Both the position numbers and the translations under genes were made by a program. From positions 1-64,000 of the forward strand of contig JAUVXE010000009.1 in assembly GCA_030603745.1 (NCBI GenBank): 64,000 nt of DNA. Direction: 5' to 3'. Source of the DNA: Coriobacteriia bacterium. Lineage in GTDB: Bacteria > Actinomycetota > Coriobacteriia > Anaerosomatales > SLCP01. Below the pieces are notes generated by a model. The model did not search any database. It saw nothing but the letters and a program-made list of their open reading frames with translations, and was not told where the DNA came from. Positions 6,429-49,287 of this stretch are shown here, piece by piece (within the stretch, counting starts at the first letter, position 1; the number at the start of each line of letters is the position of its first letter).

Positions 6429-6669
6429 GTGGGTGGGCTCCTCGTCCCTCGTGCGCCCGGGGGCGCGACTCGTTGCGCAACCACACGATTCTACCGCACG
6501 GCCCCGCGCCGCACACGTGATCCGTCACCGTGCCGTGACCGGCTGGCCCCCGACCACGAGGAGGACTCTCATCATCCGAGGGGATGATTCCGAAGGTCAT
6601 GTACGCACAGGCTGGGCAAGATTGTGTAAGGTAGTCGCGTGGGGGACGCGGATCCCTGGCCGGGAGTGT
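6429..6669 (+). other. Divergent intergenic region between the sugar operon and the surface protein gene
   Basis: No gene is supported here. For the minus-strand operon, a -10-like TAGAAT lies on the minus strand over 6488-6493, about 60 bp before the oxidoreductase start, without a convincing -35. For the plus-strand gene no clear promoter is visible; TGTGTAAGGT near 6625-6634 is a weak candidate. The structured leader described separately begins at about 6670. Confidence 0.4.
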
Positions 6670-6777
6670 GGGCGCTGAGGCCGGGGGGAGTCAGTGGCGC
6701 AACCGACCCATCATAGGTGAGGACTGAGAAGGCCCGTCGCTGTTCGGGGGAGCAGCGCGCACAGGGGCCGTCAGCCC
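6670..6777 (+). ncRNA. Candidate structured leader RNA, copy A
   Basis: A stem closes this element: GGG-CTGA-GGCC (6670-6682) pairs with GGCC-TCAG-CCC (6766-6777), about 11 pairs with small bulges. Inside is GGGGGGAGTCAGTGGCGCAACCG (in part 6683-6704) and a CGCTG/CAGCG hairpin (6738-6742 with 6753-6757). The block from the G-run to GCAACCG, and the CAGCCCAT at the 3' side of the closing stem, recur in the element at 41,048-41,128. It ends 16 bp before the start of the surface-protein gene, close to its ribosome binding site. I do not recognise a known riboswitch class; the case rests on the shared blocks and stems. Confidence 0.45.
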
Positions 6778-6793: not shown

Positions 6794-9700
6794 ATGAGTG
6801 GATACATGCCTGTACCTCGCTGCACCCTGCGTCGATCGCGGGGTGCCCGCGCCGGGAGGATCGCGTTCGCCGCGCTCATCCTGGCGCTCGTGTTCGCGCT
6901 CGCCGCACCCGGACTCGCGGCCGCAGCGAACAACGCCGGCGGCGCGCCGGCGAGCTCCGGGCTCGCTGCCCCGGTGCTCAGGGTCGAGCCGGTCGAAGGG
7001 GTCGACGACCTCAGCCAGCTTGTGTGGAGCACGCAGTTCCCGGCCACGGGTTACGAGGTGCAGTGCGCGCTTGACGACCTCTTCCGGCCCAACAAGCTCG
7101 TGGGATCCGCGGGTCTGGACGCCGGCATCTCGGAGTACCGGTTCGGTGGTCTGAAGGTCGGCACCACGTACTTCTATCGCGTACGGGCGGTCTCCGGCTC
7201 CACCAAGGGCCCCTGGTCCAACATCGTCTTCTTCGTCCACGGCCAGCGGCACACCGGCTCCAACCCGCCGATCGCCGTCGCCGGTGCGGACTACCACACG
7301 TTCGTGGGCGTGCCGGTCACGCTCGACGCGTCACTCTCGCACGACCCCGACGGTACCATCGTGAAGTACGAGTGGGACTTCGATGCCGACGGCACGTGGG
7401 ACGCGACGACCACGGGACCGACCGTGAGCCACGCGTTCGACAAGCCCGGCAACCGGCGCGTGCTGCTGCGCGTCACCGACCATTCCGGGCTGACCGCGAC
7501 CGACCGCACGCACGTGATGGTGCGGATGGACGCCTTCCCGCCGGTCGCCGTGATCGCCGGGCCGAGCGAGGTCTACGTGGGTGAGCCCGCCTTCTTCGAC
7601 GGTTCGCTCTCCTACGACGACGAGGGCTTCATCACCACGTACTCGTGGAGCTTCATCGGCGATGACGAGTACGAGTTCAGCTCGCTCCTGCCCACGGTCG
7701 CCTACACGTTCCTCGTGCCGGGCGAGTGGGTCGTGCGCCTTGACGTGCGCGACGCGGTCGGCAACGTGGGAACCGCGCAGATGTCGGTGCTTGTGAAGGT
7801 CCGCGACCATGTCGCGCCGGCGGTCGTCCAGAACGTCCGCGCCTTCGACACACCCGACGACGAGGGCGGTTCGATCACCGTCGAGTGGGACGCCAACAGC
7901 GAGTCGGACCTGCTCGGCTATCACGTCTACCGCTCGGAGAGCGCCGACGGGCCGTTCGCGCTTGTGGGGACCTCGGTGGGCACGAGCTTCGTGGACGTGG
8001 GTGTGACCGACGGCGTGGAGTACTTCTACGTGGTCACCGCCTATGACGCGCTCGAGTTCGAGAGCGATCCCTCGGCGGTCGTGAGCGCCATCGCGGCCGA
8101 CAACCTCGCCCCCGAGCCGCCCACCGGACTCTCTGCGGTCCCGGTCGCCTCCGGCGGCGCGGTCGACCTCGCCTGGACGGCGAGTATCTCAGCCGACGTG
8201 GCGGGCTACCGCGTCTACCGTGACGGCGCCCAGATCGCCGATCAGCCCGGCACCACCTACTCCGACACCGGACTCGCCGAGGGCGCCGTGCACGTCTATT
8301 CGGTGCGCGCCTACGACGGCGCGGGCAACCTCTCCGATGCGGCGCTGGCGGACAGCGTGACGGTGACCACCACCTCGCCTCCGGCGACCCCGACCGGCGT
8401 CACCGCGGTGGACGTGCCGGGTGACGGCGGCGGAGCCATCGAGGTCTCGTGGGACGCGAACACCGACCATGCGGTGGGCTACATCGTCGACGTCTACGAG
8501 GGGATCGTGCTCGTGCGCTCCGAGGATGTGGGCGACGCGACGAGCCACGTGTTCTCCGGCCTGACCGATGGGGTGGAGTACGGGATCGCCGTGAGTGCGT
8601 ACGACGCCTTTGACCGCGAGAGTGCGCCCTCGGCGCTCGTGTACGTCACGCCCATGGACAACACGGCGCCGGATGCCCCGCAGGACGTGGTGGTGACGAA
8701 TCGCGGCGCACGCTCCATCGCTTTGGGCTGGTCGGCTGTGGGTAGCGGTGCTGGGATCGAGTACTACGAAGTCGAGCGGAGCGACGACGACGGTGAGAAC
8801 TGGGTCATCGTTGGGGCGGTTCCGGGTGTTGAGTTCGTCGACCAGTCCTGCGCTCCATCGACTACCTACGTCTATAGGGTTCGCGCGTTCGACATGGCCG
8901 GTCAGGCCAGCGAGTACTCCGATCCTGTGACTGCGACGACCAAGGTCAACCCGGTTGATGCGGTCAAGCGCTATGAGAACACCGATCCCAGTGTCGTGTA
9001 CGTGGGCGACTGGTACCTGCGGAGCGACGGAGCCTACGGCACGCACACGAGTGGCGGTTCGATTCACACCGGGATGGCCGGTTCTACCTACGCGGAGTTG
9101 GAGTTCTACGGCTCACAGGTGACGTGGATCGGGTTGCGGGCGCCCAACCGAGGCATCGCCCACGTCTACATAGACGGCGAGTTCGTCGCGGCGGTCGACT
9201 GCTACCGTTCGACCTGGCACGCGGTCGAGTCATGGCAGGTCCCACTCTTCGCGCACGACTTCGGGACCCCGGGGTCGCATCAGATCCGGGTCTATCACAC
9301 AGGCCTCAAGAACGAGAGTTCGGCGAATACCTTGATCGAGATCGATGCGTTCGACGTGGTGGCGCCGGACGAGGCACCTCCGACGATCCCTACTGGACTG
9401 ATCGCACAACGGGTTCTGCCGACGCAGGCGAACCTGACGTGGACCGCGTCGAGCGACAACGTCGCGGTCGCCGGTTACCGGATCCAGCGCAGCACCGACA
9501 ACGGTCCGTGGGTCGACCTTGCGGTGGTTCCCGCTCCCGGGTACACCGACGGCTCTCTCGAGTTCGGGAGCACGTATCGATATCGCGTGAGCGCGTTCGA
9601 TGCGTCGGAGAACGAGAGCGAGTTCACCGGGCCAGTGTCCGCGAGCGGGAGCGGAGTGTATCGCTACGAGAACACACATGAATCGGTGGTCTATGTGGGC

Positions 9701-10066
9701 GAGTGGGTCCTTCGCAGTGACGGAGCGTATGGGACCCATACGAGTGCCGGCTCTCTGCACACTGGATCGAGCGCGGCCACGTACGCGAGCCTTGAGTTCT
9801 ACGGCTCTCAGGTGACGTGGATCGGGCTACGCGCACCCAACCGGGGAATCGCGAACGTCTACATCGACGGGGAGTTCGCCGGTGAGGTCGACTGTTACTG
9901 GCCCTCGTGGGACGGAACGAACTCCTGGCAAGCAAGACTCTTCTCGCGAGACTTCGGGGAGCCCGGGTTCCACGAGATCCGCGTGTACTACACGGGAACC
10001 AAGAACAGCCTGTCCGGAGCTGCGGTCATTGATGTGGACGCGTTCGAGGTCGAAAGCAGCTGGTGA
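6794..10066 (+). CDS. Exported PKD/fibronectin-III surface protein with two jelly-roll-like modules
   Basis: A 1090-aa secreted protein. The N-terminus has an Arg-rich n-region, a hydrophobic segment (about 23-46) and a likely signal peptidase site after GLAAAA. The ORF has a good GGGGGGAGCGCC ribosome binding site. Domains in order: an FN3-like domain (50-150), two PKD domains (about 155-330, each with a [YH]xF or YTF strand before PGxxxV), four or more FN3 domains (330-720), a 129-aa jelly-roll-like module (727-855), one FN3 domain and a second copy of the module (958-1086). There is no LPXTG motif, C-terminal anchor or CWB2 repeat, so how it stays on the cell is unclear. From about codon 630 onward, synonymous sites become less GC-rich, in common with the next three genes. 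Confidence 0.85.
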   Translation: MSGYMPVPRCTLRRSRGARAGRIAFAALILALVFALAAPGLAAAANNAGGAPASSGLAAPVLRVEPVEGVDDLSQLVWSTQFPATGYEVQCALDDLFRPNKLVGSAGLDAGISEYRFGGLKVGTTYFYRVRAVSGSTKGPWSNIVFFVHGQRHTGSNPPIAVAGADYHTFVGVPVTLDASLSHDPDGTIVKYEWDFDADGTWDATTTGPTVSHAFDKPGNRRVLLRVTDHSGLTATDRTHVMVRMDAFPPVAVIAGPSEVYVGEPAFFDGSLSYDDEGFITTYSWSFIGDDEYEFSSLLPTVAYTFLVPGEWVVRLDVRDAVGNVGTAQMSVLVKVRDHVAPAVVQNVRAFDTPDDEGGSITVEWDANSESDLLGYHVYRSESADGPFALVGTSVGTSFVDVGVTDGVEYFYVVTAYDALEFESDPSAVVSAIAADNLAPEPPTGLSAVPVASGGAVDLAWTASISADVAGYRVYRDGAQIADQPGTTYSDTGLAEGAVHVYSVRAYDGAGNLSDAALADSVTVTTTSPPATPTGVTAVDVPGDGGGAIEVSWDANTDHAVGYIVDVYEGIVLVRSEDVGDATSHVFSGLTDGVEYGIAVSAYDAFDRESAPSALVYVTPMDNTAPDAPQDVVVTNRGARSIALGWSAVGSGAGIEYYEVERSDDDGENWVIVGAVPGVEFVDQSCAPSTTYVYRVRAFDMAGQASEYSDPVTATTKVNPVDAVKRYENTDPSVVYVGDWYLRSDGAYGTHTSGGSIHTGMAGSTYAELEFYGSQVTWIGLRAPNRGIAHVYIDGEFVAAVDCYRSTWHAVESWQVPLFAHDFGTPGSHQIRVYHTGLKNESSANTLIEIDAFDVVAPDEAPPTIPTGLIAQRVLPTQANLTWTASSDNVAVAGYRIQRSTDNGPWVDLAVVPAPGYTDGSLEFGSTYRYRVSAFDASENESEFTGPVSASGSGVYRYENTHESVVYVGEWVLRSDGAYGTHTSAGSLHTGSSAATYASLEFYGSQVTWIGLRAPNRGIANVYIDGEFAGEVDCYWPSWDGTNSWQARLFSRDFGEPGFHEIRVYYTGTKNSLSGAAVIDVDAFEVESSW
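8972..9358 (+). repeat. Jelly-roll-like module, copy 1 (129 codons)
   Basis: Encodes residues 727-855 of the surface protein. It has the YEN(T)xxSVVYVGxWxLRSDGAYGTH opening, FYGSQVTWIGLRAPNRGIA core and IDAFDV ending of a domain commonly found in bacterial glycan-associated exported proteins. The second copy at 9665-10051 has exactly the same length. Confidence 0.8.
9665..10051 (+). repeat. Jelly-roll-like module, copy 2 (129 codons)
   Basis: Encodes residues 958-1086, the last domain of the surface protein. It repeats copy 1 with long identical stretches such as FYGSQVTWIGLRAPNRGIA followed by NVYIDGEF. Many bases also match, so the duplication looks recent or is kept similar by gene conversion. 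Confidence 0.8.
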
Positions 10067-38599: not shown

Positions 38600-40003
38600 G
38601 TGGCGCGCACCCGGGGCTCCTCGGCGATCAGACGGCTCTTCCGTTCCCCGCGCACGGCCGCGTGGCTGCTCGTACTCCTCGGCGTGTGGATGGGGCTCGC
38701 GACCGCCGTGCCGCAGGGAGCGCTCACCGACCCCGACGTCGCCGCGTGGCGGGCCGCGTATCCCGTGCTCGCCTCGGCGGCCTCGTTCCTCGGCCTGCAC
38801 CGCGCCTATGTCGCGCCGCTCTTCCTCGCGCTCGTCGCCCTCCTCGCGCTCTCGACCGCGGTGTGCTCGTGGGAGCGCACCCGCACCGCGCTCGCCGCAT
38901 GGCGCTCCGTGGGCGTCGTCGATCCGGCCCGGGTCCGCCGCCTCGAGGAGTCCCCCGCGTTCGTGGTCGACCTCGCCGGGAGCGCTGCGGCCGACCCGCT
39001 CGAGTCCGCCGGGGAGGCGCTGCGTTCCCTCGGATTGCGGGTACGCCGGGGCCCGCGCCTCGCCGAGGCGTACAGCGGCGCCTGGTCGCGGTTCGCGAGC
39101 CCGCTCTTCCACTGGTCGCTCGTGGGCCTGTTCGTCGCCATCCCGCTCGGCCAGCTCACGATGGCGAACGGACTGCTCGGCGTGCCGGTCGGCGGCGTCG
39201 TGCTCGACGAACCCTCCGCGTACGGGCTGCTGGAGCGCGGGCCGCTCAACCGGTCGCTCAGCGGTCTTGCGGTGGGCGTCGAGGAGATGCCCCTCGCGTT
39301 CGAGGCGGCAGGGGTGGACCGGGGCGCGGCACCCCTGGTGACCCTCGCGACCCGCGACGGATCCGAGGTCGCCCGGGGACACGTGTACCCCAACGCGCCA
39401 CTCAGGCACGGCGCCCTCGTGGTGCACATGAGCGACTACGGACTCGTCGTGCGCGTCTCGCTCGTGGACGCCGGGGAGCCGGTCGCCGAGACCGAGCTGC
39501 TCCTCGACTTCGATGACGACGCGGCCGACGGCACCACCACCGGCGAGATCGGCCTCTACGCCGAGGACGACTCGAACATCGCCTCCGTGCGCGTGGGCGC
39601 CGTGCTCGAGCGCACCCCGGACGGGCTCGTCTACCGCAACCTGCCGGCTGACCCGCGGGTCCGTCTCGGCCTGACCGACGCGCGAACCGGCGAGGTCGTG
39701 AGCGCGGAGCTCGGTGTCGGCGAGACGATCGAGACGCCGGCGGGGACGCTGCGGGTCGAGCACCTCGGCTACTATGCGAGACTGTCGATCGTCGAGGACC
39801 GCACGGTGCCGATCGTCTACGCGCTCCTCACGATCGCCTCGATCGCCGTGGGGGTGGCGCTGCTCGTGCCGCACCGCTCGGTGCTCGTGCTGCTGGCCGG
39901 CGAGTCCGGCGCGCGGCGCCTGCACGTGTCGGTGCGCGGCGGCAGGCAGGACCCGGACTTCGCAGGACGCGTCCGAGACGCGCTGGAAGGGGAGGGACGA
40001 TGA
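38600..40003 (+). CDS. resB: ResB-like system II cytochrome c biogenesis protein
   Basis: A 467-aa protein with the ResB/Ccs1 layout: membrane helices near residues 20-40, 70-95 and 165-185, a large extracytoplasmic domain (about 190-390) and a last helix around 415-435. The N-terminal FRSPRTAAWLLVLLGVWMGL resembles the start of ResB proteins. With the CcsA/ResC partner (overlap of 4 bp), it moves heme to the outside and attaches it to CxxCH motifs. It begins with GTG three bases after the lipoprotein stop. Placement among cytochromes needing dozens of hemes suggests a dedicated maturation pair. Confidence 0.88.
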   Translation: MARTRGSSAIRRLFRSPRTAAWLLVLLGVWMGLATAVPQGALTDPDVAAWRAAYPVLASAASFLGLHRAYVAPLFLALVALLALSTAVCSWERTRTALAAWRSVGVVDPARVRRLEESPAFVVDLAGSAAADPLESAGEALRSLGLRVRRGPRLAEAYSGAWSRFASPLFHWSLVGLFVAIPLGQLTMANGLLGVPVGGVVLDEPSAYGLLERGPLNRSLSGLAVGVEEMPLAFEAAGVDRGAAPLVTLATRDGSEVARGHVYPNAPLRHGALVVHMSDYGLVVRVSLVDAGEPVAETELLLDFDDDAADGTTTGEIGLYAEDDSNIASVRVGAVLERTPDGLVYRNLPADPRVRLGLTDARTGEVVSAELGVGETIETPAGTLRVEHLGYYARLSIVEDRTVPIVYALLTIASIAVGVALLVPHRSVLVLLAGESGARRLHVSVRGGRQDPDFAGRVRDALEGEGR

Positions 40004-40830
40004 CGCTCGAGATCGTGCTGATGTGGACGGCCGTGACGCTCTACGCGGCCTCATCGGTCGTGTTCGTGGTGGCGACGGTGTTCGTGCGCCCGCGACTCGA
40101 CGACGTCGCGCTCTGGATCGGGCTCGCGGGGCTCGTCCCCCACGCGGTCGCGATCGGGGTCCGGTGGGAGCGCGTCGGGCACGGCCCGTACCTCGGCTTC
40201 TACGAGGTCGTCTCCTCCTACGCGTTCATCTCGGTCGCCGCTCTCGGCCTCATCGCGTGGCAGCGCCGGTCGCTCGCCCGCGTGGGCGTGCTCCTCATGC
40301 CGATCGCGTTCCTCATGCTCGGAGCATCGATGTTCACGCCGAGGGCCGACCTCGAGATCACCGCGACCCTCGCCTCGTGGTGGCTCACCATCCACGTGGC
40401 CTTCGCCAAGCTCTGCTACGGGGCGTTCGTCGCGTCGTTCGCCCTCGCGTTGCTCTACCTGGCCCGGGGCCGGGCGACCGGACTCCTCGCCGAGGCACTC
40501 GAGCGCCTGCCCCGGCAGGAGGTCATCGACGACCTCGTCTACCGGTTCGTCGCCGTGGGCTTCGTGTTCCTCGGCATCATGATCGTCGCCGGGGCGATCT
40601 GGGCGAACGAGGCGTGGGGGCGGTACTGGGCGTGGGATCCGATCGAGACGTGGTCGCTCATCTCGTGGATCGTCTACGCGCTCTATCTGCACGCGCGCCT
40701 GCTCCTGGGCTGGCGCGGGCGGCGGTCCGCGTGGTTCGCGGTCGCGGCGCTGCCGGTCGTGCTCTTCGCCCTCATCGGCGTACCGCTCGTGTACAACTCG
40801 ATCCACGGGGCGTACCTGCAGGGGTTCTGA
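40000..40830 (+). CDS. ccsB: CcsA/ResC-type cytochrome c biogenesis (heme handling) protein
   Basis: A 276-aa integral membrane protein of the heme handling family with about eight helices. It carries the tryptophan-rich heme-binding segment WGRYWAWDPIETWSLISW and conserved flanking histidines (for example TIHVAFAKLCYGAFV and YLHARLLLGWRG). Together with ResB it forms the system II heme export and ligation complex. The ATG overlaps the resB stop by 4 bp. The family is universal in system II organisms; here it is embedded in the cytochrome locus. Confidence 0.93.
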   Translation: MTLEIVLMWTAVTLYAASSVVFVVATVFVRPRLDDVALWIGLAGLVPHAVAIGVRWERVGHGPYLGFYEVVSSYAFISVAALGLIAWQRRSLARVGVLLMPIAFLMLGASMFTPRADLEITATLASWWLTIHVAFAKLCYGAFVASFALALLYLARGRATGLLAEALERLPRQEVIDDLVYRFVAVGFVFLGIMIVAGAIWANEAWGRYWAWDPIETWSLISWIVYALYLHARLLLGWRGRRSAWFAVAALPVVLFALIGVPLVYNSIHGAYLQGF

Positions 40831-40929: not shown

Positions 40930-40959
40930 TTGACCTGCGTCAATTCCGAGGAGCATAAT
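40930..40959 (+). promoter_or_regulatory. Sigma-70-type promoter for the 43-site cytochrome gene
   Basis: TTGACC (40,930-40,935) and CATAAT (40,954-40,959) are separated by 18 bp, the best -35/-10 pair in the window. A start near 40,966 would give a leader of about 220 nt before the GTG at 41,188. The leader contains a GGTGAC/GTCACC hairpin (40,979-40,996) and the structured element at 41,048-41,128. Confidence 0.65.
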
Positions 40960-41047
40960 CCGCCCGAGCCATGTCCGTGGTGACAGTCCCGTCACCAAGG
41001 GGCCGGATGTGGAGCGAATCGGAAGCGTTGATCCATCGTCCGCGAAA

Positions 41048-41128
41048 CTGGGCACCTGGGCGAGGGGGAGCGAGTGGTGCAACCGGCCGTGTCGCAGCGG
41101 CCGGCTTTTTTGTTGTCCGGGTGCCCAG
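41048..41128 (+). ncRNA. Candidate structured leader RNA, copy B
   Basis: CTGGGCACCTGG (41,048-41,059) pairs with CCGGGTGCCCAG (41,117-41,128) in a 12-bp closing stem with one G-T pair. Inside are GGGGGAGCGAGTGGTGCAACCGG (in part 41,064-41,086) and a terminator hairpin. The internal block and the CAGCCCAT overlapping the 3' arm also occur in the element at 6670-6777. Copy B lies between a good promoter and the cytochrome start, the layout of a riboswitch or attenuator. I could not match it to the GEMM, ydaO, cobalamin or other classes I can recall. Confidence 0.5.
41083..41110 (+). terminator. Intrinsic terminator inside the leader of the 43-site cytochrome gene
   Basis: CCGGCCG (41,083-41,089) pairs perfectly with CGGCCGG (41,098-41,104), followed by C and six T residues. 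This is the only textbook rho-independent terminator seen in the window. It lies within the leader, 77 bp before the start codon and downstream of the promoter at 40,930, so it would stop transcription before the gene unless overcome. Confidence 0.75.
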
Positions 41129-41187
41129 CCCATCAGCAGAGGCCCGCCGCACACCGTAGGCATGACGCCGAGCAGGGGAGCGGGCTA

Positions 41188-44100
41188 GTGGGTAAACGGA
41201 TTCTGTTCATGGCCGGGGTCGCGGCGCTGCTGATCGCGCTGTCTGCCACCATCGCGTTCGCCGAGGTCCCCTCGGCGCCCTTCGAGACCAACAGCCAGTG
41301 TCTCGACTGCCACGATGTCGCCGCCGGCGGGCCGGTGCTGAGCACCGTCGACTTCCGCGCGCCGGGCGAGGTCGACTACAACCGCTGCGCCACCTGTCAC
41401 CTCGGGCTCCCGGACCAGATCATCTTTCGCGGCGAGCCCGCGCTGACCCACTATCACGCGGCGTTCGAGTGGTGCGGAGACTGCCACACGGATGACTTCG
41501 ACCCGATCTTCGCGCTGCCCGTTGAGGGCCCGCGCGTCGACGGCTTCCTGACGCTGACGAGCTACGGGTTCTTCGCCGGGCTCGACTCCCTCGCGGCCTC
41601 TCCGGAGACCCTGCACGACGTGCACATGAACCCCAGCTGGGTCGAGTCGATGTTCTCCGCCGAGTACCCGCAGTGCTCGCGCTGCCACGCCTCGGCCGCC
41701 TGCAGCACCTGCCACACCGACGCCATCGCGCACGGCAGCCATGCGCTCCCCGACTATCCTGGCCTCGTCTACAAGCAGGCGACCGGCCTGACGTCCGTCA
41801 TCGCGCCCTCGACCTGCGTCGATCCGGCGTGCCACTCGCTCCTCTCGGCGGGGAGCACCGCGTTCAACGAGCCCTCGTGCCTCGGGTGCCATGAGGCGGC
41901 CGTCTTCGGCGAGATCCACGGCTACGACAGCGTGAACCACGTCGCGCCCGTCGCCGCCGAGGAGTTCGAGGGCGTCGAATGCGCGTCGTGTCACCACATG
42001 GACCTCATGACCGAGCACGAGAAGCCGACGTCGGTCTCGGCGGGTGGCAGCTGCTTCACCTGCCACCCCTCGCCGCGCGACACCTACGGCGCGTGGGAGC
42101 AGGGCTGCCAGCAGGGCGGCTGTCACGCTCCTGCTTCCGCAGCGGAGCCGCACGCCGCGATGGCCGCTGCCCACACGCCGCCCTCGGCTGCGGCGATCTG
42201 CGGTGAGTGCCACGGCGCGACGCTCGACAGCGCGCACCTCGGTGCGAGCACCGTGGTCGACGGCGTCACCCACGAGTCGTGCAACGTCTGCCACCGGCCG
42301 GACTATCTCGCCGGGACCGCCGACTGCACCAGCTGCCACTTCACCTTCGACGACCACTACGACGAGGCCGCCCACGAGAGCACCTGGTCGCTCGACGGCT
42401 GCATCGCCGAGGGCTGCCATACGAGCAACGCCCTGATGGCAGAGCATGAGGCCGCGCGGCCCGGTTTCACCTGCATGGACTGCCACGCCGCTCCGATGTC
42501 TGCCGATGCGATCGCCGCCGGGGACACCGCGTGCAACGCGTGTCACACGAGCATCGTCGAGAACGACGCGCACCGCGCGGTGCACTGGGCGCTGCCGCCT
42601 CTGGTGAGTGGGAGCTTCCCGAACATCCAGGGCAACTACAGCTACTACCTCGGCACCGCGGGCGGTGCGCGCACGACCGACTGCGCCGGGTGCCACACGT
42701 CCAACCTCGTGGACGAGCACATGGGTCTGCAGGATTCCGGTAACTGGATCAGGATGCCGAGGGGTGACCGTTCGGGCACGGCGTTCGACTGCGCGACCTG
42801 CCATAACTCGCTCGACCCGCAGGTGATGGGCGCGATCGCCCTGGACCGCACCGCGTGCGACGCCTGCCACACCGTGCACGGTCCGATCCCCGCGGTGCAC
42901 GCATCGGACTTCGTCGCGGACGCTCCGGTCGACTGCTCGGGCTGCCACTCGTCGGACCTGACCGTGGTGCACGGCGGGTTCATGACCACCGTGACCGACA
43001 CCGGCCGGACGCTCGCCGGTTGCGACATCTGCCACGGCTACTACGACTCCGACGGTGCGCGGGGCGTGGAGGTCCGGGACGCGATCGCGGCGCGTGACAC
43101 CAGTTGCACCGCATGCCACGCGGAGTACCACGGCGACATGGCTGCCCACAAGGCGACCGCGTCCGCCTCGGCCGACGACTGCGGTCGCTGCCACGGCCCC
43201 GTCGTCGACGGCGAGCTCAACGTCGAGCCGGTACACGCCGGCGCGTCGCTGGGCGCGTGCGCCGTCTGCCACGCCAATCCCGCACGTATCCCCGACATCA
43301 CCTCCAGGACCGCCGAGTGTGCGAGCTGTCACGCGGTCGCCGGAGAGACGTACCACCGTGCAGCCACCGAGAAGCACACGTTCGGCGCGATGGACGCGGG
43401 CTGCCTCGGCGCCGGCTGTCACGTCGCCACCACACTGCCCGAGGAGCACGAGCGCTTCCTCGGCAGGTATGACGGGTACGCCGACACGTGCGCGCTCTGC
43501 CACCTCAACGACGATGCCGACCGCATCGACTGGGCCACCGCCTCAGCGGAGTGCTCGAGCTGCCACGAGGTGCACGGCGATATCGACGAGCTGCACGCCG
43601 CGCCCGGCTCGCAGGAGTGTGTCGACTGCCACGCGAGCAGCGACGTCCGCGATCTGCACGGGCAGAGCCCGGCGGCCTCCTGCGCGGTCTGCCACAACAG
43701 CGAGGTCGACACGAGCGGGACCGCCGCGTGCGTGAACTGCCACGACTACTCGCCTGTGGCCGAGAAGCACTACCGCATCGAGCCTCACGAGTCCGGGGAG
43801 TCCGCGGCGTGCGCGTCGTGCCACCACCTCGAGCTCGTGACCGAGCACGAGCGCATCGACGAGCCGGTCGACTGCGTGGGCTGCCACACGGTCGACGGGT
43901 TCCCCGCTCCGTGGGACGGCACGTGTGGCTCGTGTCACCCGCAGATCCACGGTAACCTCGGCGACAAGCACGTCTCCGAGAGCGCGGGCTGCGGCGGCGA
44001 CGGTTGCCACATGATCGGCGACGCGTCGAGCGTCCATGCGGCGCTTCCCCAGAGCGGCTGCTGGGCGTGTCACACTCCGCTCTCGGCCGATGTCACCTGG

Positions 44101-46473
44101 GGTGCGCTCAGCTGGACCGGCGTGGTGCCGACCGGCGCGTCGCTCAGCTTCGACGTACAGGGTCGCGTGAACGGCTCCTGGCAGACGATCCCGGGCCACG
44201 CGGGTCTGAGCGGCATGAGCATCGACCTGTCCCGTATCGATCTGGCTGTCTATCCCAAGCTGCGGATCGTCGCGCACTTCGCCGCCGACCCCACGCTCGC
44301 CAAGACCCCGCGTATCGATTCGTGGGCGGTGACCGTGCGCAAGGCGATCGGTGACGAGCCCGAGAGCGAGCGCATCGTGTTCAGCCAGACCGCGGTCGCC
44401 GAGTTCGAGCAGAACGAGCTCGTGCAGACCGTCGCCAGCCCCGAGTTCGGCACGGGGGCACTCGTGCTGGGGACGCAGGGCGGATCGAGCTCGGTCACCA
44501 CGGCCGACCTCCTCTTCGCACAGGTCGGCCGCAGGACGGGCGAGTACTTCCAGTACCTGCCAGCGGAGAACGCATGGAACCAGGCGAACTCGGCAGGGTT
44601 CCGGCCGTCGAGCCAGTCGTTCTTCGAGCCGCGCAAGGGGGCGACCCTGGTTGCGGCGGACGGGAAGCTCTACCTGTCGCGCGGCGACGGGAACCGGGAT
44701 CGCGCCGTCTACACCCCGCCCCCGGCCGGCGGGACCACGGGCTCCTGGCAGCGGGCGTCGAGCGCTTCGCACACGCTGAACCGCGGATCGGACGCGGCTG
44801 TCGACCCCGTGCGTGATCGTGTGTACTACACGCGGGGTGGCGAGCAGAAGGAGATCCTCCGGTGGCGCCCGTCCACGGACACGTGGGACTCGGCCATCAA
44901 CTTCAGGATCGGCTGGAGCGACCGCTCACTGAGTGTCGGCTCCGCGATCGCGTACTCCGCCTCGGCCGACCGACTCTTCGTCATCAACCGCAACCGCACG
45001 AGCGGTGACGGACGACTCTACTACCTGGCCGCGCCGTCAACCAAGAGCGGGAACCAGAACTTCACCTCGACCGGCGTCCAGGTGACGCTGAGCGGGAGCA
45101 GCGAGCGCTGGAACCGTATGGTGAGCGCGTCGGTGGGTGGCAACGAGCATCTGTTCATCCTCGGCCAGGACAGCGGGGACCGCAGCGAGTTCCAGGTCGT
45201 CTCGAACCTCGGCGCGAGCACGCCGACCCTCACCAAGGTCGGGCGGTACCCGTTCCCGAGCCGGCTCGGAGAGGGCGCGGACCTCGTGTGGGACGGTGGT
45301 CAGTATCTCTACGCCATCCCCGGCGCGGATCGGTGGGAGTTCGCCCGCATCCGGATCCCCTCCAACCCTGCGAGCGCGTCCGCGTGGGGCGCGTGGGAGC
45401 TCCTGACCCCGCCTGCCGACTCGAGCAGCCGCCAGTGGCGTGAGGGCTCGTGCATCGGGTTCCTGCCGTTGCTCGTGGAGGGTCCGTCGACCGCCAGCTA
45501 CTATCCGGCGGGCAGCGTGACCACGCTTGGCATCATGCCGCAGGGCGACACCCGGGCGACCACCGACTGCCTCAGCTGTCACGCGGCTTCTGAGGACGGT
45601 CACCGCTCGGCCCACGAATCGGTGTCGCACAACCCCAAGGGCTGCGGCGGGTGCCACTACACCAACCTGGTGGACGAGCACGAGATGGCCGGCTACGGGT
45701 GCCAGGCGTGCCACTCCTCGGCGAGCGCGGTCGTGCTGGGCGCGATCGCGTCCGGTGACCAGCGCTGCCTCACCTGCCATCCGGATTCGCCTCACAACAA
45801 GCGGCAGGCGTTCGAGTTCAATCCCGCCAACGCCTCGGGACACAACATCGACTCCAACGTCTGGCCCAAGACGTCGTTCGTCGTGAACGGTCAGAACTAC
45901 AGCGTCGGGTTCCCCACGTCGAACGTGTTCACGGCCGGCTGGAACCAGGACTCGGTCATGACGTGCGAGAGCTGCCACACCTACGACAAGAGTCAGGCCA
46001 CCGGGCCGCACGGCGGTCAGGCCGTGGTGAACATCGATCCGGCGTATCCGAATCCCGTTCGCGATCTGGGCCGGGGCGAGGCGAACACCGCACAGCTCTC
46101 GAAGAACTCCCCGACCGGCATGAGCATGAGCAAGTCGGGCAGCCAGCCCGCCAAGATCATCTGCGAGAAGTGCCACGACCTCTACAACGGCAGCAGTTGG
46201 AGCAACATCGCCCACAAGGAGCACGACGACCGTGGACGCAACGGCGCCTACTGCAACCACTGCCACGTGGCGGTCCCGCACGGTTGGGTTCGGCCGAGGC
46301 TGATCGGCTACCGGAGCGACCCGGCGCCGTATCGGACCTCGCCCGGCGGTCTGACGCGTATCACGCTCCGCTCGTACACGCCCAGCACGTGGAGCGGAAA
46401 GGACCTCTGCGGAGCCGAATGCTCGACCGGGCGCCACCCGCTGAACGAGCCGTACCAGCGGTCCTGGCCATAG
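41188..46473 (+). CDS. Giant secreted multiheme cytochrome with 43 candidate heme-binding motifs
   Basis: 1761 aa from the GTG at 41,188, which follows CAGGGGAGC and starts a clear signal peptide (cleavage after IAFA). I count 38 CxxCH and five CX4CH motifs (CVDPACH, CQQGGCH, CIAEGCH, CLGAGCH, CGGDGCH). Thirty-six lie in residues 38-962, about one per 26 residues, with many extra histidines as likely distal ligands. A beta-sandwich (about 965-1055), a kelch-like propeller (1105-1430) and seven more motifs (1461-1693) follow. The C-terminus matches that of the 15-heme protein. There is no anchor. The heme density suggests a conductive wire-like N-terminal part for long-distance extracellular electron transfer. 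Confidence 0.92.
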   Translation: MGKRILFMAGVAALLIALSATIAFAEVPSAPFETNSQCLDCHDVAAGGPVLSTVDFRAPGEVDYNRCATCHLGLPDQIIFRGEPALTHYHAAFEWCGDCHTDDFDPIFALPVEGPRVDGFLTLTSYGFFAGLDSLAASPETLHDVHMNPSWVESMFSAEYPQCSRCHASAACSTCHTDAIAHGSHALPDYPGLVYKQATGLTSVIAPSTCVDPACHSLLSAGSTAFNEPSCLGCHEAAVFGEIHGYDSVNHVAPVAAEEFEGVECASCHHMDLMTEHEKPTSVSAGGSCFTCHPSPRDTYGAWEQGCQQGGCHAPASAAEPHAAMAAAHTPPSAAAICGECHGATLDSAHLGASTVVDGVTHESCNVCHRPDYLAGTADCTSCHFTFDDHYDEAAHESTWSLDGCIAEGCHTSNALMAEHEAARPGFTCMDCHAAPMSADAIAAGDTACNACHTSIVENDAHRAVHWALPPLVSGSFPNIQGNYSYYLGTAGGARTTDCAGCHTSNLVDEHMGLQDSGNWIRMPRGDRSGTAFDCATCHNSLDPQVMGAIALDRTACDACHTVHGPIPAVHASDFVADAPVDCSGCHSSDLTVVHGGFMTTVTDTGRTLAGCDICHGYYDSDGARGVEVRDAIAARDTSCTACHAEYHGDMAAHKATASASADDCGRCHGPVVDGELNVEPVHAGASLGACAVCHANPARIPDITSRTAECASCHAVAGETYHRAATEKHTFGAMDAGCLGAGCHVATTLPEEHERFLGRYDGYADTCALCHLNDDADRIDWATASAECSSCHEVHGDIDELHAAPGSQECVDCHASSDVRDLHGQSPAASCAVCHNSEVDTSGTAACVNCHDYSPVAEKHYRIEPHESGESAACASCHHLELVTEHERIDEPVDCVGCHTVDGFPAPWDGTCGSCHPQIHGNLGDKHVSESAGCGGDGCHMIGDASSVHAALPQSGCWACHTPLSADVTWGALSWTGVVPTGASLSFDVQGRVNGSWQTIPGHAGLSGMSIDLSRIDLAVYPKLRIVAHFAADPTLAKTPRIDSWAVTVRKAIGDEPESERIVFSQTAVAEFEQNELVQTVASPEFGTGALVLGTQGGSSSVTTADLLFAQVGRRTGEYFQYLPAENAWNQANSAGFRPSSQSFFEPRKGATLVAADGKLYLSRGDGNRDRAVYTPPPAGGTTGSWQRASSASHTLNRGSDAAVDPVRDRVYYTRGGEQKEILRWRPSTDTWDSAINFRIGWSDRSLSVGSAIAYSASADRLFVINRNRTSGDGRLYYLAAPSTKSGNQNFTSTGVQVTLSGSSERWNRMVSASVGGNEHLFILGQDSGDRSEFQVVSNLGASTPTLTKVGRYPFPSRLGEGADLVWDGGQYLYAIPGADRWEFARIRIPSNPASASAWGAWELLTPPADSSSRQWREGSCIGFLPLLVEGPSTASYYPAGSVTTLGIMPQGDTRATTDCLSCHAASEDGHRSAHESVSHNPKGCGGCHYTNLVDEHEMAGYGCQACHSSASAVVLGAIASGDQRCLTCHPDSPHNKRQAFEFNPANASGHNIDSNVWPKTSFVVNGQNYSVGFPTSNVFTAGWNQDSVMTCESCHTYDKSQATGPHGGQAVVNIDPAYPNPVRDLGRGEANTAQLSKNSPTGMSMSKSGSQPAKIICEKCHDLYNGSSWSNIAHKEHDDRGRNGAYCNHCHVAVPHGWVRPRLIGYRSDPAPYRTSPGGLTRITLRSYTPSTWSGKDLCGAECSTGRHPLNEPYQRSWP
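45811..46470 (+). repeat. Shared C-terminal cytochrome module, copy in the 43-site protein
   Basis: Residues 1542-1761 begin FEFNPANASGHN and repeat the element order of the 15-heme protein: NVWPKT, AGWNQDSVMTCESCH, IDPAYPNP, SPTGMSMS, IICEKCH, VPHGWVRPRL and CGAECSTGRHPLNEP. Roughly three of five residues agree along about 220 positions by eye. Confidence 0.88.
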
Positions 46474-46498: not shown

Positions 46499-46527
46499 GG
46501 AAGGCGGGGGAGCCACCCTCGCCTTCC
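46499..46527 (+). terminator. Hairpin after the 43-site cytochrome gene
   Basis: GGAAGGCG (46,499-46,506) pairs with CGCCTTCC (46,520-46,527), with further G/C pairs possible inside, 25 bp after the stop. As after the 15-heme gene, no U-run follows. The rest of the gap to 46,669 holds the promoter region described next. Confidence 0.5.
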
Positions 46528-46574
46528 GTGTGCTTGAGGCTGTCCGGATCAGTGCCGATAACGCTTGTGGGCGA

Positions 46575-46669: not shown

Positions 46670-48100
46670 TTGGCGGACCACGACATCGCACGGGGCGATC
46701 TCGAGCAAACAGGGTCGAGCGAAGACGAGGGGCGAACTCGTGCCTGGCCGCTCCTGCTCCTGTTGCTTCTCCTGCTCCTGTGCGCCGTCATCACGATCGT
46801 CGACACGGTCATCGATCGCGGACCCGACAGGGCACGCTTCATCGCACGCAACCTCGAGTGTCTGCAGTGCCACACCGAGCTGATCCCCGAGCTCTCGATG
46901 GCGTCCGTGCACAGCCCGTTCCTGCTTGAGGACTGTACCGTGTGCCATACGCCACACGGCAAGGAGGTCGAGAGGACGCTCATCTCGGGCTCGACGAGCA
47001 CCTTCCAGCGCGTGCGCACCGTGATCGAGTGGCTTCCGCTCCGCTGGATCCTCTCGACCTGGGACTCCGTCACCGGCGTGACCGAGACCGACGCCGGAGG
47101 CCGGGTCGTCTCGCGGACGACCGAGGAGGTGCCGGGTGGCCGCTCTGAGCTGACCGCGCCCGCTGACGAGCTCTGCTGGATCTGCCACGGGAACCTCGGC
47201 GCCGAGCTCGGGATGGCCTACCAACACGCGCCCTTCACCAACGGGAACTGTCTCGACTGCCACGCGCCCCATGCGTCCGACTGGCAGGGGCTGCTCGCGC
47301 AGGACCCGCGCGATCTGTGCATGACGTGCCATGGGAGCATCGGAGCGCAGATGGCCCGGCAGCAGCTGCACGCGCCGGTGGAGAGCCGCTTCTGCACCGA
47401 CTGCCACCTTCCGCACGCGTCCGAGTGGAAGGGCATCCTCACGCAGCGCCAGCGAGACCTCTGTTTCACGTGCCATCCGTCGGTGGCCTCGCTCAGCCGC
47501 ATGCCCGTGCAGCACCAGCCGTTCGAGTTCGACAACTGCACCGGGTGCCACGAGCCGCACGGCTCAGACTATGTGCCGCTGCTGATCGACGCGGAGCCGC
47601 GCGTGTGCTACCTCTGCCACGCCGACATCGAAAGCGACTTCGGCAGGGTGAGCGTGCACCCCGTGGGCACCGCACAGCTCAACTGCTCGGACTGCCACGA
47701 CCCGCACGCCGCGCAGTACGAGGCGCTCCTCGCCGCGCGCGACAACGAGATGTGTTACCAGTGCCACCGCGAGGGCCTGCAGGTCACCTACGACGCCTCC
47801 GACCACGGCCGCCTGCTCTGCGTGCGGTGTCACACCCCGCACGGTTCGGATTTCCGGCCGATCCTGCGCGACGCCAACCCGGACATCTGCCTCACCTGTC
47901 ATGGCTGGGTCGAGGCACACGACAACCAGCACCCCGTCAGGCCGGTGTACTATGATGTGAGGGCCGGCACGCCGATGACGTGCACGTCGACCTGTCACGG
48001 GCCGCACGGCACCGAGTTCCCGATGATGGTGCGGTTCGTCCCGTGGCCGTTCGACGGCCGCTGCTTGCAGTGTCACAGCAGGGTAGGAATCGATTTCTAG
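46670..48100 (+). CDS. Membrane-anchored multiheme cytochrome with doubled CxxCH repeats (15 heme motifs)
   Basis: 476 aa. The only sensible start is a TTG at 46,670 just after GGAGGAG; no ATG or GTG occurs in the first 25 codons. One membrane helix (about 27-48, Leu-rich) is followed by 14 CxxCH and one CX3CH motif (CTSTCH). The motifs alternate as in the doubled-CxxCH family: LCWICHGNLG…NCLDCHAPHAS, LCMTCHGSIG…FCTDCHLPHAS and so on, each unit about 45 residues with CH-x-PH[AG]S. It would sit in the membrane facing the wall and pass electrons from the NapC-type protein outward. It is followed 23 bp later by that gene. Confidence 0.9.
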   Translation: MADHDIARGDLEQTGSSEDEGRTRAWPLLLLLLLLLLCAVITIVDTVIDRGPDRARFIARNLECLQCHTELIPELSMASVHSPFLLEDCTVCHTPHGKEVERTLISGSTSTFQRVRTVIEWLPLRWILSTWDSVTGVTETDAGGRVVSRTTEEVPGGRSELTAPADELCWICHGNLGAELGMAYQHAPFTNGNCLDCHAPHASDWQGLLAQDPRDLCMTCHGSIGAQMARQQLHAPVESRFCTDCHLPHASEWKGILTQRQRDLCFTCHPSVASLSRMPVQHQPFEFDNCTGCHEPHGSDYVPLLIDAEPRVCYLCHADIESDFGRVSVHPVGTAQLNCSDCHDPHAAQYEALLAARDNEMCYQCHREGLQVTYDASDHGRLLCVRCHTPHGSDFRPILRDANPDICLTCHGWVEAHDNQHPVRPVYYDVRAGTPMTCTSTCHGPHGTEFPMMVRFVPWPFDGRCLQCHSRVGIDF

Positions 48101-48123
48101 CCGAGGAGACGAGGTTCGCCCGC

Positions 48124-49287
48124 ATGCCCAAGGTACGGTTGATCGGTGGATTCAAAGACCCGCTCACGCGTCCGCGCTACATCATCTGGACGGGAGCGGT
48201 GGTCCTCCTCCTCGCGGCGTTCGTCGTCACCGCGCTCGGTGTCACCTCGACCTACTGGTTCTGTGCCGAGGTCTGCCACAAGGTGCAGGACGACTCGATC
48301 ATCGCCTACGACCGTTCCGCGCACTCCGAGGTCTCCTGCATGGCGTGTCACGTCCCGGTCGGGATCACGCCCATCGGGTTCGTGCTCAAGAAGGCCGAGG
48401 CGCTCGGCGAGCTCTACCTGACCGCGACCAACAAGTTCCACCTGCCGCTCAACCCCGACTCCCACCTGGCGCTCAGCCGCAAGTACTTCCCTGAGAAGCA
48501 GTGCAACCAGTGCCACAACCTCGAGCTTCGGCCGGTCACTCCGAGCCCCGGCATCATCATCGACCATGCGGTGCACTCCGAGAACGACATCCAGTGCACC
48601 GCATGCCACAATCGCACGGCGCACGTCGAGGACTTCGACCTCACGCTCACCGATCCCAACACCGGCGAGCCCAACCAGAAGCACGACGACTTCATGCTCA
48701 TGACCGCGTGCTTCCGCTGCCACACGCTCACCGAGGACTCCCCGAGCGGGATCTGGGCGCCGGGCGCGTGTGAGGCGTGCCACACGCCCGGCTTCGAGCT
48801 CATGCCCGACAACCATCGCGTCGAGGGCTTCTACGAGCTCTTCGGCGAGAGCAGCGGTCACGCCGAGATGGCGCGCGAGGAGTACGAACGCGCCGGAGAG
48901 GCGTTCACCGAGTGGCAGGCCCACGTGGGCGACCTGACCGACTACGACCTGCCGGTCGTGCCGGTGGCCGCGGTCAACTACTGCTCGACCTGCCACGTGG
49001 AGCGCGAGTTCTGCGACGGGTGCCACGGGATCGAGATGCCGCACCCGGCTGGGTTCGCCGAGGCCCACGGTGACGACGGGCGCGCGCGTCCCGAGGTCTG
49101 CGAGACGTGTCACGCGACCGCCGAGGGCGTGGACTTCTGCAACGCCTGCCATCACCCGCAGGGAGACCCGACGCGCGACTGGATCCCGCAGCACATGGGG
49201 GCGGTCCGCGAGAGCGGCGCCCAGGCGTGCTTCGACTGCCACGCGCCGACGTACTGTGCCGAGTGCCACGTCCGTGGGGGGAGCTAG
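48124..49287 (+). CDS. NapC/NirT-type membrane-anchored multiheme cytochrome, probable menaquinol oxidant
   Basis: 387 aa from the ATG at 48,124; the longer open frame is shadow. One N-terminal helix (about 20-42) precedes CAEVCH (a CX3CH site), HSEVSCMACHVP, KQCNQCH and CTACH, the NapC/NirT/NrfH-like quinol-oxidising core. About eight more motifs follow, for a total of 11 CxxCH and one CX3CH. NapC-family proteins take electrons from menaquinol and hand them to periplasmic or surface partners. The extended C-terminal heme part is longer than in NapC (about 200 aa) and may replace a separate carrier. It is the last gene of the cytochrome run. Confidence 0.9.
   Translation: MPKVRLIGGFKDPLTRPRYIIWTGAVVLLLAAFVVTALGVTSTYWFCAEVCHKVQDDSIIAYDRSAHSEVSCMACHVPVGITPIGFVLKKAEALGELYLTATNKFHLPLNPDSHLALSRKYFPEKQCNQCHNLELRPVTPSPGIIIDHAVHSENDIQCTACHNRTAHVEDFDLTLTDPNTGEPNQKHDDFMLMTACFRCHTLTEDSPSGIWAPGACEACHTPGFELMPDNHRVEGFYELFGESSGHAEMAREEYERAGEAFTEWQAHVGDLTDYDLPVVPVAAVNYCSTCHVEREFCDGCHGIEMPHPAGFAEAHGDDGRARPEVCETCHATAEGVDFCNACHHPQGDPTRDWIPQHMGAVRESGAQACFDCHAPTYCAECHVRGGS

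Follow-up and report, generated by a model that had tools for sequence, protein, structure and literature searches.

A c-di-GMP-II riboswitch leader as the probable transcriptional ON switch of a 43-haem cytochrome gene in Anaerosomatales

Analysis of the 64-kb window (the whole stretch of DNA studied, 64,000 nucleotides) revealed that the gene for a giant secreted multihaem cytochrome is preceded by a c-di-GMP-II riboswitch aptamer whose core is shared with an intrinsic terminator, and from this sequence we infer that the leader very probably acts as a transcriptional ON switch for that gene. The riboswitch class itself is known; neither its use on giant cytochromes nor the clean two-pocket split described below was found in the literature searched. 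The leader contains the following elements:

40930-40959 (+): sigma-70-type promoter TTGACC-18-CATAAT, from a promoter-match scan
40970-41011 (+): 5' extension, here called P0, with a stem 40970-40977/41004-41011 and an inner hairpin 40978-40984/40991-40997 followed by AAGGGGC
41012-41097 (+): c-di-GMP-II riboswitch aptamer (RF01786), Rfam score 62.4 bits, E 1.7e-11 over the window
41052-41080 (+): aptamer pseudoknot, 41052-41056 with 41076-41080, supported by covariation
41083-41111 (+): intrinsic terminator, stem 41083-41089/41098-41104 and U6 at 41106-41111, -16.1 kcal/mol
41113-41128 (+): segment after the U-run, complementary over 16 bp to aptamer bases 41048-41063 in read-through RNA, not conserved

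A sequence-only reading of this DNA had placed a structured element in the leader; the element is real, and its identity as a c-di-GMP-II aptamer is near certain. The score lies above the Rfam gathering cut-off of 53.5 bits, and the class I model c-di-GMP-I/GEMM (RF01051) gave no match at this locus. Both-sided changes were found at 9 of the 16 pairs of P2, P3 and the pseudoknot across 22 aligned leaders, a subset of the 34 same-pocket leaders described below that was selected for a compact hairpin 3' of the core; none of 500 shuffles reached this count, from which P1 was left out because the alignment has gaps there. The pseudoknot is paired in 100% of the 22 sequences, its middle pair being A-U in 14 and G-C in 8. 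In the window, 7 of the 11 model pairs of P1 are standard (41014-41017/41092-41095 and 41020-41022/41087-41089). The pocket letters read AAG, with T (U in RNA) at N37 and A at N69, as in canonical c-di-GMP-II aptamers; the numbering (U37, A69, A70, G73) is presumably that of the published structure. Assignment to c-di-GMP-II-GAG (RF03169) was rejected, as position 69 is A and not G.

The promoter is the sole 10/12 match on either strand of the window, which bears out its earlier ranking as the best one there, and transcription would start at about 40966. The hairpin said to follow it is also present (40978-40997). Matches of at least 9/12 occur within 200 nt 5' of the aptamer in 26 of the 34 same-pocket (AAG) leaders, versus 2 of 145 coding control blocks. 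In the haem leaders of relatives the P0 stem likewise lies between the transcription start and the aptamer, often enclosing a second hairpin, with AGGGGC preceding its 3' arm. Both-sided changes affect 6 of its 8 pairs in an alignment of 14 of the 34 leaders, partly hand-picked as those with a readable stem, and at most 3 of 500 shuffles match this. The motif [AT]GGGG is found in the last 24 nt 5' of the aptamer in 24/34 same-pocket leaders versus 5/34 further upstream. It is these aligned pair changes and the GGGG motif that argue for P0, not the site-by-site comparison with shuffles, in which only 6 of 32 stems reached p<=0.05. P0 could stack on P1 or slow the polymerase. By eye, no P0 was seen in the named matches from other phyla, and a search of the leader against plasmids gave no match.

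Ahead of the GTG at 41188 lies the seven-pair terminator with six T residues that the sequence-only reading had described: CCGGCCG-loop-CGGCCGG at 41083-41104 forms seven Watson-Crick pairs and one U-G pair, and the six T follow at 41106-41111. Its 5' arm, bases 41083-41089, serves both as the conserved core 3' of the ligand-binding A-A and as the P1 3' arm, and aptamer and terminator are predicted to be mutually exclusive. P1 is present in the predicted fold of an RNA ending at 41097, which leaves the earlier proposal that full folding needs transcription past the terminator unsupported; in an RNA ending at 41111, P1 is lost to the terminator. A terminator scan alone found 2 sites in 10 kb, where chance predicts 1.8, terminator-like sites being as frequent in shuffles, and the window's own terminator reached only p=0.045 against shuffles because the stretch is very GC-rich. 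The terminator is convincing because of its overlap with the aptamer and its conservation in relatives; the scan by itself would not suffice.

Among the 34 same-pocket leaders, 20 have a hairpin that starts in the aptamer core with p<=0.05 against shuffles, 22 have at least 4 T in the 10 nt after the hairpin (baseline 12%), and 18 show both features together. In the 22 aligned leaders 96.4% of the terminator cells are paired, a value partly due to construction since these leaders were picked for having a hairpin, versus at most 57.1% when the arms are slid, and two both-sided changes were seen. Some same-pocket cytochrome leaders (for example those of genomes G030, G019, G036 and G064) have no core hairpin within 45 nt, and the output stage therefore differs among leaders. 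The conditional readthrough proposed earlier is supported by the identity of the ligand-binding core with the terminator 5' arm and by the same overlap in relatives. The element is a c-di-GMP-II aptamer rather than an attenuator answering an unspecified signal.

The sequence-only reading had also described a closing stem with its 3' arm after the U-run. The complementarity is real: the 16-pair match 41048-41063/41113-41128 was reached by no shuffle in 500 (p=0.002 for the best unbroken helix). A duplex-energy test, in which 796/1000 and 69/100 shuffles were as good as or better than the window, built long bulged duplexes and was judged unsuited, and the best-unbroken-helix test was used instead. 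As the riboswitch's own stem the match was rejected, because P1 (41014-41022/41087-41095) lies entirely 5' of the U-run; the helix occurs in 0 of the 33 other same-pocket leaders. Only one of those 33 sites, in genome G047, has a helix at p<=0.05, and this is a different one of 11 bp with another partner (p=0.036). The 16-bp helix thus appears peculiar to the window genome; it would unmake the aptamer, not complete it, and at most it would trap RNA that has read through in a form blind to the ligand, in this species alone.

The gene downstream of this leader lies among other cytochrome and cytochrome maturation genes:

38600-40003 (+): cytochrome c maturation gene, ResB-like, just upstream of the promoter
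40000-40830 (+): cytochrome c maturation gene, CcsA/ResC-like, just upstream of the promoter
41188-46473 (+): secreted multihaem c-type cytochrome, 1761 aa, 43 candidate haem sites, with Cytochrome_C7 and MtrC/MtrF-like II/IV domains
46670-48100 (+): 476-aa decahaem DmsE/GSU2203-like cytochrome with 14 CXXCH, scoring under the cut-offs of those models
47980-49287 (+): NapC/NirT-type cytochrome, 11 CXXCH, start codon uncertain

The earlier count of 43 sites in the 1761-aa protein holds as 38 CXXCH plus 5 CX4CH motifs, and a search of solved structures with this protein gave no match at 1e-5. Downstream of its gene, a GC-rich inverted repeat with no T-run (46500-46530) may end or weaken any co-transcription with the next gene. 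The cytochrome cluster as a whole (31064-53424) has frames with 7, 15, 38, 14 and 11 CXXCH as well as the ResB/CcsA-like genes, and is followed by genes for a radical SAM protein, a menaquinone-type methyltransferase and an amidohydrolase related to aminofutalosine deaminase.

The ligand of the aptamer is likely to be c-di-GMP. The genome has 14 GGDEF and 4 EAL domains, and at the GGDEF site that selects between c-di-GMP and cGAMP, which we take to be the position of D226 of WspR, all ten readable domains of the 14 carry Asp. Enzymes that make cGAMP have Ser or Thr at this site, so these domains look like makers of c-di-GMP, in keeping with c-di-GMP as the likely ligand. D226 of WspR is named in the accessible part of PMC6456294.

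A mechanism is proposed in which the polymerase would start at about 40966 and transcribe first the 5' extension, then the aptamer. With c-di-GMP bound, P1 and the pocket would hold 41083-41089, the terminator 5' arm would be occupied and the cytochrome gene would be transcribed; with c-di-GMP scarce, 41098-41104 would capture 41083-41089, the terminator would form and the RNA would end at about 41111. As terminator and aptamer core use identical bases, the geometry gives ON logic, and terminator-based ON control is very likely. The purpose could be to make a costly extracellular electron-transfer protein only when the cell has attached itself, or is committed, to a mineral or other surface. 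In the accessible portions of the literature, pili and sortase-anchored adhesins are known targets of class II switches; according to the available text of PMC6200980, C. difficile has four class II riboswitches and each is an ON switch, and the one before pilA1 acts by terminator read-through in that of PMC6366702, which also warns that riboswitch direction is not transferable between species.

A genuine aptamer that drives an OFF switch, or that works mainly on translation or RNA stability, is unlikely; in such a scheme the ligand would favour termination, or the post-U-run helix and the 5' extension would set the fate of the mRNA. Such control could draw on the 16-bp helix, which is possible in full-length RNA, and would fit both the lack of an overlapping terminator in several relatives and the other modes of action that the available sections of PMC6366702 give for c-di-GMP riboswitches of other species; but the helix is not conserved, and the sharing of bases by terminator and aptamer core is conserved both among relatives and across other phyla. 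Less probable still is a different cyclic dinucleotide as ligand, such as cGAMP, which would resemble the Geobacter GEMM-Ib leaders before cytochromes. The target genes are the same as in Geobacter in the part of PMC6456294 seen, and a sister variant pocket exists within the same genomes, but the pocket here is canonical c-di-GMP-II and Asp occupies the selectivity site of every GGDEF domain that could be read.

That a ribosome or a protein gates the terminator, as in a peptide-leader or protein-dependent attenuator, is very improbable: a 62-codon ATG frame (40971-41159) spans the leader without a stop, but no Shine-Dalgarno-like sequence lies 5' of 40971, the frame extends through and beyond the terminator, and the aptamer covaries as RNA. 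An amino-acid attenuator with a leader peptide was likewise rejected, this frame being the only candidate. A functionless chance combination of a GC-rich inverted repeat and a T-run has a negligible probability; terminator-like sites alone are no commoner than in shuffles, but the aptamer is conserved in the order, its E value is 1.7e-11, and covariation already refutes chance for it. Ligand-dependent ON switching by the c-di-GMP-II aptamer remains the preferred reading.

We surveyed all 69 genomes retrieved for the order Anaerosomatales (61 in a first pass). They contain 110 aptamers, which by their pocket letters divide into 34 AAG, 74 GAG, 1 AAC and 1 GTA; the AAC site (G003:C8) and the GTA site (G017:C152) were left out of the two-class count, and neither precedes a haem gene. 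Downstream genes were called mechanically as the longest frame starting within 400 nt, and a few calls may be wrong. Twenty-seven of the 34 AAG sites, in 25 genomes, are followed by a gene carrying 5 or more haem motifs (range 10 to 52), 2 precede other genes and 5 lie at contig ends, which gives 27 multihaem cytochromes among 29 readable AAG genes. None of the 71 readable GAG sites (of 74) precedes such a gene, and an LPxTG-type C-terminal signal ends 28 of 58 closed GAG frames versus 0 of 23 closed AAG frames. The pockets also differ at positions 37/69, which are T/A at 34/34 AAG sites and C/G at all 73 readable GAG sites. The Fisher value for the AAG/GAG split by cytochrome target, 2e-22, overstates the number of independent events; all 27 downstream cytochromes form one cluster at loose linkage, and the association is therefore largely inherited within the order rather than arising 27 times. 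The cytochrome target is unexpected and lineage-wide.

Two genomes have a pair of successive canonical aptamers on a single contig, each ahead of a cytochrome gene of its own, at loci L055 (G050:C21:26019 and 30780; 42 and 11 haem motifs) and L062 (G014:C135:17682 and 19006; 10 and 49 haem motifs). The two AAG sites before other genes are G027:C271 and a second aptamer in the window (6633-6717, +), which lies upstream of a gene (6794-10066) for a secreted protein of 1090 aa containing fibronectin III and PKD domains. Rfam labels this second aptamer c-di-GMP-II-GAG (48.6 bits versus 47.7 with RF01786), a doubtful label because of its canonical pocket letters (A69); a terminator overlapping it was looked for and not found. 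The third aptamer of the genome (G000:C20:88283-88370, -; loci L003 and L107) has a true GAG pocket (RF03169, 60.5 bits) and is followed by a 1394-aa frame with a C-terminal LPFTG sorting-type signal. The only RF01051 match of the genome, a class I c-di-GMP riboswitch of 50.2 bits (G000:C27:45638-45729, -; locus L193), precedes the gene for a short secreted protein (about 222 aa); the genome therefore uses both unrelated c-di-GMP aptamer folds.

GAG leaders contain GGGTA[TC] within 110 nt 5' of the aptamer in 30 of 73 cases, versus 1 in control stretches, and a sigma-70 match of at least 9/12 upstream in only 2 of 74. We take GGGTA[TC] to resemble a sigma-B/F-like -10 element, and the GAG leaders look as though they use an alternative sigma factor promoter, so that the AAG and GAG regulons seem to differ in promoter too. 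Anaerosomatales might operate a pair of parallel cyclic-dinucleotide regulons, each with its own pocket variant of a single fold, an idea that we put forward only tentatively: U37/A69 leaders, with a housekeeping promoter and the 5' stem, would gate giant electron-transfer cytochromes, and C37/G69 GAG leaders, with the GGGTAT-like promoter, would gate sortase-type adhesins, the pockets reading different ligands or c-di-GMP levels so that attachment and mineral wiring are timed separately. No ligand of the GAG variant was named in the literature found; PMC9943018, in its accessible part, gives only the Rfam model.

Scanning 84,980 species, each represented by one genome, with an exact pattern, which is GC-biased and no full census, gave 57 matches in 54 loci. 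Twelve of these, in ten loci whose contigs all equal contigs of the order set in length, lie ahead of genes that have 5 to 52 haem motifs. The other 45, from Chloroflexota, Bacillota and other Actinomycetota, precede 38 genes with no haem motif, with no readable gene in 7 cases. Many matches in other phyla share the core-overlapping terminator, so the output stage is common to several phyla, and only in Anaerosomatales is a cytochrome target seen.

In the founding paper of the order, 17-18 multihaem cytochromes are listed for each isolate; the text searched does not link them to regulation and has 0 occurrences of 'riboswitch' or 'c-di-GMP' (PMC9686372). A search of the open-licence literature for a c-di-GMP-II riboswitch with a cytochrome found no report, and among papers on riboswitches, c-di-GMP and multihaem cytochromes none concerned class II or actinobacteria, by title. 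With this leader, extracellular electron transfer in a Gram-positive-type lineage gains a direct control point that can be tested. If the proposal is true, an expensive 'electric wire' protein is tied to surface life in a little-known bacterial group, multihaem cytochromes came under the control of cyclic-dinucleotide riboswitches on two occasions, in Geobacter and here, from unrelated RNA folds, and coupling electron-export proteins to an attachment signal is a recurrent solution. The two pocket variants within the same genomes are a natural experiment on the evolution of ligand choice by RNA.

Three known systems come close. c-di-GMP-II-GAG (RF03169) shares the order, the fold and often the same core/terminator overlap; it has C/G rather than U/A at N37/N69, precedes genes for LPxTG-type surface proteins and uses other promoters. 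Cdi-2-4 of C. difficile, upstream of pilA1, and the class II switches of sortase-anchored adhesins belong to the same aptamer family and have terminator-based ON logic, whereas the leader described here has a giant multihaem cytochrome as its target, comes from an anaerobic actinobacterial order and carries the extra conserved 5' stem P0. The Geobacter GEMM-I/GEMM-Ib leaders (c-di-GMP-I/cGAMP) before OmcST, OmcAHG and PgcA likewise combine a cyclic dinucleotide, antiterminator ON control and extracellular cytochrome targets, and in the sections available they have the GEMM-I fold and are mostly for cGAMP (PMC6456294). The Anaerosomatales leader differs from them in its unrelated aptamer fold and Rfam family, its phylum and its expected ligand, c-di-GMP.
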